A stretch of 64,000 nucleotides of DNA, taken from positions 1,984,001 through 2,048,000 of the forward strand of contig NZ_JAXCLX010000001.1 of NCBI RefSeq assembly GCF_034044635.1. Reading direction: 5' to 3'. This DNA is from Dongia rigui. GTDB taxonomy: Bacteria; Pseudomonadota; Alphaproteobacteria; Dongiales; Dongiaceae. The position numbers and the translations under genes are program-made. The notes below the pieces were generated by a model. The model was given only the letters and a program-made list of their open reading frames with translations, was not told where the DNA came from and did no database searches. Positions 25,986 to 50,734 of the stretch are shown here, one piece after another (within the stretch, counting starts at the first letter, position 1; each line of letters opens with the position of its first letter).

Positions 25986-26100
25986 GCCCCCCTCCCGACC
26001 TCCCCCCTGAAGGTGGGAGGGGTCTAGAGCGAGGCTGATCGATCAAACTCAGTCCAAGAGCCCTCCCACCTTCAGGGGGGAGGGATGGGTGGGGGGCGGG
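25986..26100. repeat. C-run/G-run palindromic repeat before the PfkB kinase gene
   Basis: Left half CCCCCCTCCCGACCTCCCCC with CTGAAGGTGGGAGGGG; right half CCCTCCCACCTTCAGGGGGG then GGGTGGGGGGCGGG. The two halves are inverted copies around about 45 bases. Together with the copy inside trmE it forms a subtype marked by AAGGTGGGAGGG. Confidence 0.85.
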
Positions 26101-31818: not shown

Positions 31819-32955
31819 CTAGAATTGCAGCGCTGAACCGATCGCGATTTCGAGTGCGTCATACCCATCGGCGTTGTCGCCATCATCATCGGCGGCTTCG
31901 TTCCAGGTATAGAAGATGCCGCCGTCGATGTTGATGCCCGGCCCCATGGCATAGGAGAAATCGACGCCAGCACGGTCGAGTTTGCTGTCGTCGCTGAAGC
32001 CGGCTTCTTCCGTCTGCACATGGGCATAACCACCACCGACGGTCCAGGCGTCCTGCGTATAGGCAAAGCCCAGGCCGAACATCCAGATATCCTGGCCGGC
32101 GCCGTTGCCGTCATCGAGAAACGTGCCGGTGGCACCGACCTGCAGCGCACCGATGCTGACATTGGCGCCGATATTGTAGCCGGCCTGTTCAGCGTCGTCG
32201 GCCGACGTACCCTCGACATCGCCCTCCCAATATCCGGCGGCACCCAGATTGAGACCCCAGCCATTGCCTTCATAATCGTAATGCACGGCGAGCGCGACAT
32301 TGTGGTTTGCGCTGCCGTCGGAGCGGTCGGGATGGAAGCTGTCGGCGACGTTGTCGGTGCCCTCGTCCGTCTTCTCGTCGTCATTAGGTGTGTAAGAGAG
32401 GCCGAAACTGAAACCGTTCCATTGCGGCGTGTAGTAGACGATCTTCATCACCGCATCTTGCAGGGCGAGCGACGCCTCCGGATCGAAAATGCCTGGGCTG
32501 AGCGGCGAGCCGATGATGTTGGGCGAATAGGGTCCGAAATTGGCCGTCGATCCAGGCGGCAGCATGTACATGTTGCCAGCCGCGCCGTCGAGCGCGCCGA
32601 TCCGGATGTCGCCGAAACCGCCTTTGTAGAAGACATAGACATTATCGATGAAATCGTCGGTCTGGCTCTCGGCCTCCATCTCGATGCGGGCACCCACGGT
32701 GACGCCGTTATCGAGCGTGGTCTCGCCCAGGAAGAAGACTTCGGAATCGCTGCTGACGCCGTCGAGATTCTGGTCGTGACCCAGCTCGCCTTGCGCATCG
32801 TCATCGATGGTGAAGCCGTAGGCGCTGCGGAAGAACCCACCGAGACTGAGCTTGATGCCGTCGGAGGCCACGGCCATCGGCATCGCCACGACATTCGCGG
32901 CACCCGTGACCGACAATGCGAGGAGGGAGGTTGTGGAGCGAAAATTCATCGCCAT
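31819..32955 (-). CDS. Outer-membrane porin (paralogue 1)
   Basis: 378 residues. Signal peptide of about 30 residues (MAMNFRSTTSLLALS, ending near AVASDG), then a beta-barrel of alternating aromatic/polar strands with Asp/Gly-rich turns, ending in phenylalanine (SALQF) as outer-membrane proteins do. Recognisable porin phrases are ELGHDQNLDG, GFGDIRIGALDG and GYDALEIAIG. AAGGGG seven bases upstream supports the ATG at 32955. It shares its layout with the porin at 33861-34979 (GVKLSLGGF against GIKLSLGGF), so the two are tandem paralogues split by the PLP-protein gene. Confidence 0.92.
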   Translation of the reverse strand: MAMNFRSTTSLLALSVTGAANVVAMPMAVASDGIKLSLGGFFRSAYGFTIDDDAQGELGHDQNLDGVSSDSEVFFLGETTLDNGVTVGARIEMEAESQTDDFIDNVYVFYKGGFGDIRIGALDGAAGNMYMLPPGSTANFGPYSPNIIGSPLSPGIFDPEASLALQDAVMKIVYYTPQWNGFSFGLSYTPNDDEKTDEGTDNVADSFHPDRSDGSANHNVALAVHYDYEGNGWGLNLGAAGYWEGDVEGTSADDAEQAGYNIGANVSIGALQVGATGTFLDDGNGAGQDIWMFGLGFAYTQDAWTVGGGYAHVQTEEAGFSDDSKLDRAGVDFSYAMGPGINIDGGIFYTWNEAADDDGDNADGYDALEIAIGSALQF

Positions 32956-33860: not shown

Positions 33861-34979
33861 TTAGAAGGTGATCGACGAACCGACCGAGAACTCGAGCGAG
33901 TCGTAGCCGTCCGACGTAGCCTCGGCCGCATCCACACCGCTGGCCCAGCTATAGAAGAGACCGGCATCAAGGTCGATGCCAGGACCCATGGCGTAGCTGC
34001 CAGTCACACCAACGCGCTGCACTGTGACGTTATCTTCAAAGTCAGAAGCAGGCGTGTTGTTTTCGATGTTACGCAGCGCCCAACCAGCGCCGACGGTCCA
34101 GGCGTCGACGTTGTAGGCGAGACCCACACCAACCGACCATTCGTCGCCATTTTCGCTGTCATCGTCATCGACGATCGTCTGCTGGTCCTTGTAAGTGAAC
34201 GCCGTACCAACGGTCAGGCCACCGAACGACAGATTGACACCGGTGTTGAAGGCAAAGAACTCGTCATCGCCGTGCTCTTCGATGTCACCGGAATAGGCAA
34301 GGGCGCCGCCGAGGGCCAAGCCCCAGCCATCGCCTTCGAAGTCATAGTGCACGCCGGCTTCGAGCTCGTGGTTGATATCGCCAGCGTCACGGTTCGGGTG
34401 GAAGGTGTCGGCCACGCCGTCACCCTGCTTCTCGAAGCCACCTTCCGGCACGTAGGACACGCCGAAGCTGAAGCCGCTGAAGTTCGGCGAGTAGTAGGCG
34501 ATCGACTGCGGCTTGCTGACCGGCGACGGATCGAAGCCGGAGATGACCAGCTTGGAACCGATCTGGGCCGGCGAGAACACGCCGAAGTTCGCCGTGGAGC
34601 TCGGCGGCAGCATGTACATGTTGTCGGCGACGGCACCCTGCGAACCAACGCGGATGTCACCGAAACCGCCCTTGAAGTAGACATAGGCGGCGTCGATCTG
34701 GTCGCCCGAATCTTCGGCTTCCAGCTCGATACGGGTACCAACGGTGATGCCGTTGTCCAGCGTCACGCTGCCGAGGAAGTAGACTTCGCCGTCGGTGCCG
34801 ACGCCGTCGAGGTTCGAGTCATGGCCAGCTTCGCCCTGACCATCGTCGTCGAAGGTGAAGCCGTAGAACGACTTCATGAAGCCGCCAAGGCTCAATTTGA
34901 CACCATCGGACGCCTGAGCGGTGCCGGCCATGAGGCCGATACCGAGCAGAGCCGAGGTCCCCAGGAGAACTTTTTTCAT
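33861..34979 (-). CDS. Outer-membrane porin (paralogue 2)
   Basis: 372 residues from ATG 34979 (MKKVLLGTSALLGIGLMAG); the frame is open for 98 codons further up but those are not coding-like. The signal peptide ends near AQASDG. The barrel shows GLSLGGF-type strands, an acidic GEAGHDSNLDGVGTDG turn as in the first porin, NMYMLPPSSTANFG and a terminal aromatic strand ending SSITF. Probably a general trimeric porin. Its A/T-richer third positions and strong terminator suggest high expression. Confidence 0.94.
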   Translation of the reverse strand: MKKVLLGTSALLGIGLMAGTAQASDGVKLSLGGFMKSFYGFTFDDDGQGEAGHDSNLDGVGTDGEVYFLGSVTLDNGITVGTRIELEAEDSGDQIDAAYVYFKGGFGDIRVGSQGAVADNMYMLPPSSTANFGVFSPAQIGSKLVISGFDPSPVSKPQSIAYYSPNFSGFSFGVSYVPEGGFEKQGDGVADTFHPNRDAGDINHELEAGVHYDFEGDGWGLALGGALAYSGDIEEHGDDEFFAFNTGVNLSFGGLTVGTAFTYKDQQTIVDDDDSENGDEWSVGVGLAYNVDAWTVGAGWALRNIENNTPASDFEDNVTVQRVGVTGSYAMGPGIDLDAGLFYSWASGVDAAEATSDGYDSLEFSVGSSITF

Positions 34980-35421
34980 CTCGAGATTCCCTAAGTTTGC
35001 GATTGCCACCGGACTTTCCCTCAACCTTTTTGGTCTTAGAGAAGGCCCGGATGCCCCTCGTTCACGGACCGGCTTGCTGGGTCGATTTTGCCAAGTACTT
35101 GACGAGATCGACTCAAAAAGCCCGCTCAGCCCGGAACACGTCGTACCTTCTCGGAATGGCGGGGGGGTGTCAAACCATTTGAGCCGAACACTGTGGCAAT
35201 TTTCAGCAGCTGTTGCGCAAAAGCCACAAGGGCGGCGCCCGTTCAGGCAATGATAGCCTGGCTGAACCGGCAATCAATGAAATGTCCTGCAATATGAACG
35301 GGATCAATTGCGGGCATGCGATGGGGTGGGACCGCTTCCACCCGTGTGCCAGCCGGTGCGGATGCGCCACAGGAGCCAGGTTTGAGACGGGGCGAGGGTG
35401 CTTCCGACCCGCCTTAGGAAG
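34980..35421. other. 442-base intergenic region upstream of porin paralogue 2
   Basis: It must carry the porin promoter and a long leader on the minus strand. I see no gene. There is a loose inverted repeat GGGTGG...CCACCC near 35325-35345 and another, GGCGGCGCCC, near 35230; neither is convincing. No small-RNA gene could be supported. Confidence 0.5.
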
Positions 35422-37101: not shown

Positions 37102-37120
37102 GGCGGACACACCTCTACTT

Positions 37121-37207
37121 GTCATGGCCCGCTTTAGGCGGGCCATCCACGAGTTTGTCGGCAGCGGCTAGTAATTCGTGGATGGCCCGCCTAAAGCGGG
37201 CCATGAC
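37121..37207. repeat. Perfect 32-base inverted repeat element, copy 2
   Basis: Arms 37121-37152 and 37176-37207 are exact reverse complements over 32 bases, separated by 23 bases. Each arm folds alone: ATGGCCCGC-TTTAG-GCGGGCCAT. The element ends 17 bases before the leuS ATG, so in the leuS leader it would form a very stable structure next to the ribosome site. It is related to the element at 17232-17324. Confidence 0.92.
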
Positions 37208-37224
37208 ACTGAAAGAAACCGATC

Positions 37225-40504: not shown

Positions 40505-41530
40505 ATGAAACTCGACAAACAGCCGCTCGAAAAATTCCTGAAGGAGCCGGCCGGTAACGTCGCCGCGGCACTGGTCTTCGGACCGGACGAGGGCATGGTG
40601 CATGAGCGCGCGATGGCGATGAGCCGCGCGATCCTGGGCGATATGGACGATCCCTTTCGCCTCACCGAACTGACTGGCGACGAGATCAAGGCCGACCCGG
40701 CGCGCCTCATCGACGAGGCGCGGGCGATTGCGATGATGGGCGGGCGGCGCGTCGTGCGCGTGACCCGCGTCAGCGACACGCATGAGCCGGCTTTCGCGGC
40801 ACTCCTTGCCGATCACAAGGACAGCAGCCAATGCCTGGTCGTGATCGAAGCGGGCGATATCGGCGGCAAGTCATCGCTGAAGCGGCTGTTCGAGAACGCG
40901 CCCCATGCCGCGGCCATTGCCTGCTATCGCGACGAAGCGGCGGCGCTCCCTGCCCTCATTACGCAGCATCTCAAGGCGGCAGGCCTGGAGATCGACCGCG
41001 ACGCGGTTTCCTATCTGGCCGCCAATCTGGGTGGCGATCGCGGCATCACCCGGGCCGAACTCGACAAGCTGGTGCTTTATATGGGTGCCGAAAGGAAGGT
41101 CAGCCTCGACGACGCGATGGCCAATGTCGGCGACCAATCGGCCGTCGGCCAGGACGATCTCTGTACCGCGATCGGGCTTGGCGATCTCAAGGGCCTCGAG
41201 CGTCAGATCGAACGCAACCTCGCCGAGAGCAACGAGATCTCGCTCATCCGCGCCGTGGCGCGCCATTTCATGAAGCTGCACCAGGTGACGGCCCGCGTCG
41301 CCCGCGGCGAGCAGCTGGAAGCCGCGATGGCAGGACTGCGCCCGCCGGTCTTCTGGAAAGCCGTCGACGGTTTCAAGGCGCAATGCCGGCGCTGGCCCGC
41401 CGACATCATCGGCCAGGCTCTGCTGCGCCTGGCCGAGATCGAAGCCGAGGCCATGCGCCAGCACCAGTTCGCCGACACCCTCACCCGCCGCGGCTTGATG
41501 GAAATCGCCGCCATGGCGGGGAAGAGGTAG
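40505..41530 (+). CDS. holA: DNA polymerase III subunit delta
   Basis: 341 residues, normal length. The N-terminal half is the AAA+-like part without Walker ATPase residues (ALVFGPDEGMVHERAMAMS, then AGDIGGKSSLKRLFENAP). DRDAVSYLAANLGGDRGITR and the helical collar domain follow (LIRAVARHFMKLHQVTARV). Delta opens the beta clamp as part of the clamp loader. The gene follows lptE as in many proteobacteria. Confidence 0.94.
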   Translation: MKLDKQPLEKFLKEPAGNVAAALVFGPDEGMVHERAMAMSRAILGDMDDPFRLTELTGDEIKADPARLIDEARAIAMMGGRRVVRVTRVSDTHEPAFAALLADHKDSSQCLVVIEAGDIGGKSSLKRLFENAPHAAAIACYRDEAAALPALITQHLKAAGLEIDRDAVSYLAANLGGDRGITRAELDKLVLYMGAERKVSLDDAMANVGDQSAVGQDDLCTAIGLGDLKGLERQIERNLAESNEISLIRAVARHFMKLHQVTARVARGEQLEAAMAGLRPPVFWKAVDGFKAQCRRWPADIIGQALLRLAEIEAEAMRQHQFADTLTRRGLMEIAAMAGKR

Positions 41531-47338: not shown

Positions 47339-49219
47339 TCACGCGCTCTGCCGCTCCGCTTTCTGCCGGCGGACATGGCGCAGCAGGACGGTGAGCGCCG
47401 CCGGAGTGATGCCGGAGATGCGGCTGGCAGCACCCAAAGAGGCCGGGCGGGCCTTCTTTAGCTTCTCGCGCACTTCGGCAGAGAGCGAGGCCACCTGGTC
47501 GTAATCGAGATCCTCGGGCAGCAGCAGTGCCTCGTCCTTGCGGAAGGCGATGATGTCGGCGTCCTGGCGCTTCAGATACCCGGCATAGCGGCCGTCGATT
47601 TCGATCTGCTCGGCGATCTCCGGGGCGAGATCCGCCACTTCCGGCCAGATCTGGGCGACACGGGCGAGGTCGATTTCCGGGTAGGCCAGCAGCCCCATCG
47701 CGGTCCGGCGCTGGCCGTCCTGGTTGATGGTGAGGCCGTGATTCTTGAGTTCATTCGGTGTGGCCGACAGCTCCGCCATGCGGGCGCGCGCGGCCTCAAG
47801 CGCTGCCATCTTGGCGGAAAAGGCCGATTCACGGGCCGATCCCACGCATCCCCAGGCGAGGCCCAAGGCCGTCAAACGCTGATCGGCATTGTCCTGGCGC
47901 AGCTGCAGCCGGTATTCGGCGCGGCTGGTGAACATGCGGTAGGGTTCGGCCGTTCCACGTGAAACAAGGTCGTCGATCATGACACCGATATAGGCCGAGG
48001 CCCGGTCGAGGGTGACACCCTCCCCCGCCCCGCCGACCAATCGCGCGGCATTCAGCCCGGCCATCAGGCCCTGCGCCGCCGCTTCCTCATACCCCGTCGT
48101 GCCGTTGATCTGGCCGGCGAGGAACAGCCCCGGCATCGCCCGGAGTTCCAGGGTGGGCTTCAGTGCACGCGGGTCGACGAAATCGTATTCGATGGCATAG
48201 CCCGGGCGCAGCATGACCGCGTGTTCCAGACCCGCGATGGTCTTGAGGAGTGCCGCCTGCACATCGGCCGGCAGCGAGGTCGAAATACCGTTGGGATAGA
48301 CGGTGTCGTCGTCGAGGCCTTCCGGTTCCAGGAAGATCTGGTGGCGGTCCTTTTCGGCAAAGCGCACCACCTTGTCCTCGATAGAGGGGCAATAACGCGG
48401 CCCCGTCCCCTCGATCTGGCCCGAATAGATGGGCGCGCGGTGGAGGTTGCCGCGGATCAGCTCATGCCCGGCAGCGCTCGTATAGGTGATGCCGCAGGCA
48501 ATCTGCGGCGTCGTGATCTCCTGGGTGAGATACGACATCGGCACCGGCGGGTTGTCGCCGGGCTGGGATTCCAGGGACTTCCAATCGATGGTGCGGCCGT
48601 CGAGGCGCGGTGGGGTCCCGGTCTTCAGGCGTCCCAGCGGCAGGTTGAGGCGCTTCAGGGTCTCGGCGAGTTTCACGGATGGGGCTTCGCCCACCCGGCC
48701 GGCGGGCACCCGTTCCTCGCCACAATGGATGAGGCCGTTGAGGAACGTGCCGGTGGTCAGCACGACGGCGCCGCAGCTGAGACGTTCGCCGGCTTCTGTC
48801 ACCACGGCGGCCACGCGGCCATCCTGGCCGATTTCCAGATCGGCCGCGGCACCGGCTCTGACAGTGAGGTTCGGCTGCTCGGCCAGGAGCGCCTGGACGG
48901 CCTGGCGATAGAGCTTGCGGTCGGCCTGGGCGCGGGGGCCGCGGACGGCCGGACCCTTCGATTGGTTGAGCATGCGGAACTGAATGCCGCCCCGGTCGAT
49001 CGCCCGGGCCATGATGCCATCGAGGGCGTCGATCTCGCGCACCAGATGCCCCTTGGCCAAACCGCCGATGGCGGGGTTGCAGGACATCTCGCCGACCTTG
49101 GCGGGGTCATGGGTGAGGAGCAGGGTCCGGGCGCCCAGCCGCGCAGCCGCCGCCGCCGCTTCCGTCCCGGCATGGCCACCACCGACCACAATCACATCGT
49201 ATGTCTGTTCAGTGCTCAT
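47339..49219 (-). CDS. mnmG: tRNA U34 carboxymethylaminomethyl synthesis protein MnmG (GidA)
   Basis: 626 residues. FAD-binding loop [20 protein letters not shown] at the N-terminus; [20 protein letters not shown] and the conserved [15 protein letters not shown] are later landmarks, and a C-terminal helical domain ends the protein. With TrmE (encoded next) it makes the cmnm5U modification at tRNA wobble uridine. A degenerate parS lies inside, and a perfect parS touches its start. Confidence 0.97.
47951..47966. other. Degenerate parS-like site inside mnmG
   Basis: CGTTCCACGTGAAACA matches 14 of 16 positions of the parS consensus; mismatches are at positions 1 and 5. It lies within the conserved segment coding [13 protein letters not shown]. 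Binding by ParB would be weak if any. Confidence 0.6.
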
Positions 49220-49273: not shown

Positions 49274-50734
49274 TTACTTGCCGATGCAGAATTCCCGAAA
49301 GATCAAATCGAGAACATCATCGACTTCCACGCGTCCTGTGATCCGGCCCAAGGCCTGGACGGCAAGACGCAAATCTTCCGCCTTCAACTCGACCACCGGG
49401 GCGTGAAGCCCCCGTCGCAAGGCACCGAGGCACCGTTCCAGCGCCGCGCGATGCCGCAGCCGGGTCAGGGCCGGCTGCGCCCCCGGATTCAAGGCCTTCG
49501 CCGCCTTGTCGGTGAGGGCCGCAACCAGGGCATCGAGCCCCTCACCGGTCTTGGCCGAAACCAGCAGCAGGTCACGCTCAACAATCGCCGTCTTCCGGCC
49601 GACCGCGAATTCGGCCTTGTTCAATACGACAATCGCCTCGGCGTCAATCTGCTCGGCGACAGTTGCGTCAAAATCGGGCCAGACCGCGCCATCGAAAACG
49701 ATGAGCTTCAAATCGGCATGCTCGGCCCGTTTCAGGGCCCGCTTCACCCCTTCCTGCTCGATCTCATCAGGACTTTCACGCAAGCCCGCCGTATCGGCGA
49801 TGAGCACGGGATAGCCGCCCAAGTCGAGCTTCACCTCGATGACGTCGCGCGTGGTACCAGCCCGCGCCGAGACGATGGCCGCCTCCCGTCCTGCCAGGCG
49901 GTTGAGCAACGACGACTTCCCCACATTGGGCGAGCCGATGATGGCGACGGAAAGACCATCGCGCAGCATCTCGCCACGATGATTGTCGGCCAGATGCGCC
50001 TCGATCTCGTCGCTGAGGATGCGCATCGTCTCGTCGACCAACATCATCAGGCCGTCGGGCAGATCCTCATCGGGAAAATCGATCGCCGCTTCCATGCGCG
50101 CCAGTGCCGATATGAGCGGACCGCGCCAGCTTTCATAGAGGCTCGAGAGTTCGCCTTCCGCCTGCCGCAGCGCTTGGCGCCGCTGCGCTTCGGTCTCGGC
50201 GGCGATGAGATCGGCAAGACCTTCGATCTCGACCAGGTCAAGCTTGCCATGATCGAACGCACGCCGCGTGAACTCGCCGGGTTCGGCGAGGCGCAGATCA
50301 AGCGCTGTCAAAGCCTTCGCGACGGCCGCGATGATCGCGGGGCCGCCATGGGTATGCAACTCGACCACATCCTCGCCGGTGAAGCTCGCCGGTGCCTTGA
50401 AATAAAGAACGAGCGCGTCGTCGAGGGGGATCTTCTCTTCTCCTCCCACCTTTAGGGGGGAGGTCGGGAGGGGGGCATCTCGGTGGATGGAGGCATCACT
50501 TGCAGCCCCCCACCCAACCCTCCCCCCTAAAGGTGGGAGGGCTTGTCCTTCAGGTGTTGACGCATAGAGCCGCCGCTTCACCGCAACGCGTGGTGTCGGC
50601 AAGGCCTTTCCGGTCAGGGTTTGCAAGGCCTCGGCCGCGCGCGGGCCGGAGAGGCGGAAGACGGCGACGCCGGATTTCCCCGCAGGTGTCGCCAGCGCAA
50701 AGATCGTATCGCCACTCATCGCGTCAGGGGTCAT
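49274..50734 (-). CDS. trmE: tRNA modification GTPase TrmE (MnmE), with an in-frame repeat-derived insertion
   Basis: 486 residues. N-terminal tetrahydrofolate-binding domain (GDTIFALATPAGKSGVAVFR, HTHGGPAIIAAV), helical domain, a G domain inside it (G1 GSPNVGKSSLLN, TTRDVIEV, G3 DTAGLRES) and the C-terminal FCIGK motif. With MnmG it modifies tRNA wobble U34. Two oddities: residues about 61-101 (RVGWGAASDASIHRDA and similar) correspond to a palindromic repeat and have no counterpart that I know in the family; and G4 reads NKAE where NKxD is usual. The ATG at 50734 overlaps the upstream ferredoxin stop (ATGA); ATG 50719 (MSGDTIF) is an alternative. Confidence 0.95.
   Translation of the reverse strand: MTPDAMSGDTIFALATPAGKSGVAVFRLSGPRAAEALQTLTGKALPTPRVAVKRRLYASTPEGQALPPLGGRVGWGAASDASIHRDAPLPTSPLKVGGEEKIPLDDALVLYFKAPASFTGEDVVELHTHGGPAIIAAVAKALTALDLRLAEPGEFTRRAFDHGKLDLVEIEGLADLIAAETEAQRRQALRQAEGELSSLYESWRGPLISALARMEAAIDFPDEDLPDGLMMLVDETMRILSDEIEAHLADNHRGEMLRDGLSVAIIGSPNVGKSSLLNRLAGREAAIVSARAGTTRDVIEVKLDLGGYPVLIADTAGLRESPDEIEQEGVKRALKRAEHADLKLIVFDGAVWPDFDATVAEQIDAEAIVVLNKAEFAVGRKTAIVERDLLLVSAKTGEGLDALVAALTDKAAKALNPGAQPALTRLRHRAALERCLGALRRGLHAPVVELKAEDLRLAVQALGRITGRVEVDDVLDLIFREFCIGK
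50441..50541. repeat. C-run/G-run palindromic repeat inside the trmE coding sequence
   Basis: TCCTCCCACCTTTAGGGGGG then GGTCGGGAGGGGGG; core ATCTCGGTGGATGGAGGCAT; inverted end CCCTCCCCCCTAAAGGTGGG. It keeps the trmE frame open and encodes about 34 residues of the insert. The subtype is shared with the repeat at 25986-26100. Confidence 0.9.

Follow-up and report, generated by a model that had tools for sequence, protein, structure and literature searches.

The trmE gene of Dongia rigui raises the question of whether a mobile palindromic repeat can enter the gene of a tRNA-modification enzyme and become part of its protein. The gene lies in the window (the whole stretch of 64,000 nucleotides that was analysed), for which an initial annotation had proposed that such a repeat is protein-coding. 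That reading is supported in substance, and none of the refuting tests named with it went against it. We consider it probable (about 0.85) that a mobile REP-like palindrome inserted in a loop of trmE after the split from the closest sequenced sister species, and that it was kept and translated with the enzyme still working.

The palindrome within trmE

The features of the locus are as follows.

49274..50734, minus strand: trmE/mnmE (tRNA uridine-5-carboxymethylaminomethyl synthesis GTPase), 486 aa; NF003661 (573 bits), PF10396, PF12631 and PF01926
50441..50542, minus strand: in-frame insert, a near-perfect palindrome, 102 bp, 34 codons (TrmE residues 65–98, ALPPLGGRVGWGAASDASIHRDAPLPTSPLKVGG)
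50441..50475, plus strand: first palindromic unit, hairpin followed by a G-rich tail; family profile 23.2 bits
50476..50505, no strand: spacer of 30 nt between the two units, unpaired or weakly paired by arm comparison and RNA folding
50506..50541, minus strand: second palindromic unit, inverted; family profile 29.3 bits
25986..26097, no strand: intergenic element of the same subtype, the closest one in the window, with its tails outward; the corresponding site in the sister species is without the element

This trmE is the sole full-length TrmE match in the genome (G000). The match to the MnmE model of NCBIfam, NF003661, covers residues 8–486, and in the Pfam search the N-terminal TrmE domain (PF10396) is broken into two stretches by the insert, in line with the claim that the protein is normal TrmE on either side. 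The gene directly downstream (47339..49219, minus strand), named from its sequence, is presumably mnmG/gidA-like, the partner of TrmE. The reading frame has no stop across the whole palindrome, and the insert is a multiple of three bases. The initial annotation had assigned codons 61–101 to it; the palindrome is indeed there, but the element itself corresponds to residues 65–98 and the rest are flanking loop residues.

The arms of the trmE element (50442–50475 and 50507–50540) are 85% complementary and 31 nt apart. Both are 95–97% like the intergenic copy at 25986–26097, which bears out the assignment of the two to one subtype (the copy had been placed at 25986–26100). In the 1.6 Mb of G000 that were sampled, we found 87 elements of the family, nearly all of them intergenic, comprising 49 tail-out pairs and five tail-in pairs. 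The tails of the two units in trmE point inward, the layout of those five. The only Rfam matches of the element were sub-threshold hairpin look-alikes, e.g., miRNA families.

The trmE loop in related species

Only a short turn had been expected between the flanking TrmE segments. The segment running from RR.Y to DDAL is 10–16 residues long in 46 of the 48 comparable named orthologues and 51 in G000; the other long one (69 residues) belongs to a second Dongia species, G003. The N-domain is unsplit in 15 of the 17 genomes of the family, and is split at the place of the insert only in G000 and G003. The closest sequenced sister (G001), whose TrmE is 93% identical, has an empty site, RRLYA-QR-IPLDD. 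In all, the insert is absent from five Dongia species. Orthologues thus lack the extra residues, as the proposed alignment was meant to reveal. That the G000 insert arrived after the split from G001 appears to be the best explanation of these alignments. Loop length and sequence vary among species, and we infer the exact sequence of the loop before insertion. At trmE and at the empty G001 sites, where the flanks have diverged, we saw neither a target-site duplication nor a clean junction; the flanking duplication that the initial annotation had named as a check is not visible at trmE.

The G003 insert, overlooked by the initial annotation, is a second and independent one at the same loop. It is about 150 bp long and in frame, belongs to a different subtype with tails outward and has an extra central hairpin. 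The G000 and G003 insert peptides have no sequence in common. In the TrmE tree calculated with the loop removed, G000 pairs with G001 (support 98/97) and G003 with G004 (84/92, which is only moderate). Because both tree partners, G001 and G004, are without the insert, two independent gains would be the simplest history and are favoured by the gene tree; one gain followed by losses and replacement is conceivable as a less simple one. An assembly or sequencing artefact, which the metagenome-assembled origin of several comparison genomes brings to mind, is highly improbable: the G000 insert lies deep in a 2.45-Mb contig of a 99.75% complete assembly of 10 contigs, it is a specific 102-bp sequence that differs from every other copy at positions of its own, and an analogous insert was found independently in G003.

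A wider scan covered 387 alphaproteobacterial genomes, of which 335 had a match, seven of them in two pieces; this result rests on the top-ranked matches, below which a longer one-piece insert could be missed. Among the matches listed, two other alphaproteobacteria with two-piece matches, G293 (L304) and G348 (L303), have a long expansion that is not palindromic and sits in an earlier loop of the N-domain. The remaining two-piece matches, besides G000 and G003, were second genes or unrelated matches.

Constraint on the host genes and on the inserted peptides

Both flanks of the insert site in trmE stay under purifying selection. Between G000 and G001, dN/dS is 0.093 upstream of the insert (48 codons) and 0.044 downstream of it (120 codons); the corresponding figures are 0.048 and 0.043 in G003–G004, and 0.116 and 0.051 in the control pair G001–G006, in which both genes lack the insert. 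Flank values lie within 0.04–0.14, and because they are low on both sides, both halves of TrmE remain constrained. The folate-site residues of Escherichia coli MnmE are R23, F73, H84 and FCIGK at 450–454 (PMC12397908). Their equivalents in the insert-bearing TrmE (R27, F118, H129 and the C-terminal FCIGK) are all kept.

In the AlphaFold2 model of G000 TrmE, numbered as the protein minus one, residues 62–96 have pLDDT values below 50 (about 30–50 in the insert) and are bracketed by confident strands at 51–58 and 98–111. Residues 57–110 of G003 TrmE likewise show low pLDDT between strands. Where a surface loop had been anticipated, the model thus predicts a loop, at low confidence, with a strand on either side. 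The low pLDDT suggests, as an indication and not as proof, that both inserts are disordered. The pTM of the whole insert-bearing protein is low (0.43); against the lone N-domain chain 1xzq_B, the model has a target TM of 0.87. The insert thus probably adds about 34–40 residues, likely disordered, to a single loop of TrmE, and we infer that the protein is still a working enzyme.

On the preferred reading, a two-unit C-run/G-run palindrome of a mobile REP-like family would have entered the part of trmE that encodes a short beta-hairpin loop in the folate-binding, N-terminal domain. It would have been moved in trans by a putative transposase that G000 now lacks or that escaped detection there. 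The palindrome would have been retained because its length is a multiple of three, its frame holds no stop and the solvent-exposed loop tolerates length. The ribosome would read it as about 34 Pro/Gly-rich residues (TrmE residues 65–98), and the enzyme would still work. The inserted peptide would be neutral, and the insert is most likely a tolerated passenger.

All open frames across the 87 elements were read, and two copies were genuinely genic, those in trmE and in dnaE2. A coding-score filter alone missed the trmE copy, so that other genic copies with short flanks may be missed in this count. Searching the G000 genome with the insert peptides returned many open frames over palindromes, which were read as antisense or intergenic. 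In dnaE2 of G000, the palindrome is in frame and forms residues 198–233 of this error-prone polymerase, C-terminal to its PHP domain. This insert is common to G000 and G001 and absent in G003, G004 and G006. The dnaE2 gene of another Dongia species, G005 (L249 966–4409), carries a different in-frame palindrome at a different site (residues 797–843, inside the HHH region).

The lengths of the two-unit elements are spread evenly modulo 3 (21 of 68 are divisible by three) and 39.7% of their frames are open, which puts the chance that a random genic insertion is in frame and also open at about 0.12. The G000 copies in trmE and dnaE2 were left out of the frame test, because they were found through being in frame. 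The G003 trmE and G005 dnaE2 inserts would be visible to orthologue searches whatever their frame, although the latter was first noticed by a peptide search; both are in frame, which has a probability of about 0.015 by chance (0.12 squared, assuming independence). These numbers bear on the idea that the trmE insert escapes translation, through bypass of the hairpin by the ribosome or removal of the RNA segment, and that the protein would have its usual length. As RNA, the 102-nt element has a predicted folding energy of −81.4 kcal/mol (z = −9.2 relative to dinucleotide shuffles), and so stable a hairpin might lend itself to skipping or excision. Skipping, however, puts no demand on the frame, which both test cases keep, and the rarity of genic elements (2 of 87) is expected if they are read and costly. 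We therefore regard bypass or removal as very unlikely.

The dnaE2 insert differs between G000 and G001 by 12.5 nonsynonymous and 2.5 synonymous changes (the latter of 24 sites); therefore, the peptide appears to be under no constraint, and it shows no sign of conservation. The dN/dS values of the flanks for the same pair are 0.056 and 0.095. In G001, the far end of the palindrome has decayed with the frame kept. Synonymous change in the insert is low relative to its flanks, which neutrality alone leaves unexplained; small counts or gene conversion could account for it.

Two independent in-frame insertions in one trmE loop and two in dnaE2, all made by strongly structured palindromes, might also be taken to mean that the trmE insert has taken on a role in TrmE or its mRNA (e.g., pausing of translation or an added contact), which would explain why one loop was hit twice. 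The two trmE peptides, however, share no sequence and are predicted to be disordered, the five other Dongia species do without an insert, and the dnaE2 insert lacks peptide constraint and has a decayed palindrome in G001. Adoption is thus an improbable alternative, hardly more likely than bypass. It is also doubtful, if somewhat less so, that the loop in trmE is a genuine hotspot, with the site chosen by these palindromes or their mover through a DNA or RNA target, or with selection repeatedly favouring a translated palindrome; if it were, this loop would be hit by independent insertions again and again. We retain the reading of a tolerated passenger for trmE, and the family seems to be repeatedly tolerated inside apparently working genes.

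Movement of the family and known palindromic elements

The family was also said to move if the trmE insert was real. Within 0.8 Mb of G001, the counterparts of 37 element sites were located: many are common to both genomes, about nine are without an element in G001, and some are occupied there by another family of palindromes. Because several syntenic sites are filled in G000 and empty in G001, the family, judged from these alignments, moves or disappears at a rate that can be measured. At three of the intergenic sites (entries 36, 46 and 68), a C-run/G-run palindrome in G000 faces an unrelated one of the TCATG..GGGCATCC type in G001, which gives the impression that some sites will take any palindrome.

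Rickettsia palindromic elements (RPEs) were reportedly described by Ogata et al. in 2000 and 2002. They are 100–150 bp long, occur between genes as well as in frame in conserved genes, where they add tens of residues, and are described as tolerated passengers (PMC2229807). The trmE element resembles them in its mode of insertion, as the initial annotation had suggested: it is palindromic, 102 bp long, in frame in a conserved gene and absent from orthologues. The likeness does not extend to sequence, because the insert peptide matches no model in NCBIfam, the collection searched, and the whole proteins match no RPE model there. Genic copies are also few in G000 (2 of 87 in 1.6 Mb), and the host is a member of the Rhodospirillales with a 4.7-Mb genome. 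Dongia is a free-living genus.

Intragenic REPs of the GTAG and CGTC types were reported by Di Nocera et al. 2013 (PMC3733652). Their hosts include dnaE2, which was thus already known as such, and the tRNA-modification genes truA/B; in recB of two Xanthomonas species, different REPs lie at about the same site (PMC3733652). trmE is not mentioned as a REP host in the main text of that paper. Like these REPs, the present elements are paired inverted units that are repeated and mostly intergenic, with some in frame in genes, and the two trmE inserts of G000 and G003 parallel the recB case. In contrast, the terminal GTAG and CGTC are absent from both strands of the trmE element, the copy that was read for them. 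The family also differs from REPIN/RAYT or TIRYT systems: no match to the RAYT-type transposase (PF01797) was found in G000, G003 or G006, and the Y1_Tnp gene of G001 was ruled out as a candidate mover because it is flanked by other repeats and not by these palindromes.

The terminal inverted repeats (TIRs) of the TIRYT tyrosine transposases carry a GGGGWSAS motif and come as dimers (PMC3733652). Elements of the present family form dimers too, and 64 of the 87 contain GGGGWSAS, compared with 2.75% of random 130-bp stretches; the trmE copy, unlike the TIRs, carries GGGTGGGGGG instead. The link to TIRYT TIRs appears weak, because G-rich repeats fit the motif easily.

By these comparisons, the trmE element seems to behave like RPEs and intragenic REPs, yet to be neither by sequence. 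The novelty lies in the repeat family, the host clade, the host gene (trmE) and a series of close species in which the site is empty, filled or independently filled. Protein-coding palindromes would thus extend beyond Rickettsiales and tagged REPs. Close Dongia species with the insert present, absent or independently replaced offer tests of neutrality, movement and loop reuse, and a conserved tRNA-modification enzyme bearing a loop of 34–58 residues, predicted to be disordered, provides a natural experiment.

Elements are denser in the window (10 in 64 kb, noted at 41500–63600) than in the sample as a whole (87 in 1.6 Mb). A second palindrome family is present at 37120–37208 (TGTCATGGCCCGC...), with 36-nt arms that are 97% complementary. 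Two adjoining porin-like genes on the minus strand (31819–32955 and 33861–35273) are 71–77% alike in stretches and are apparently a tandem duplication.
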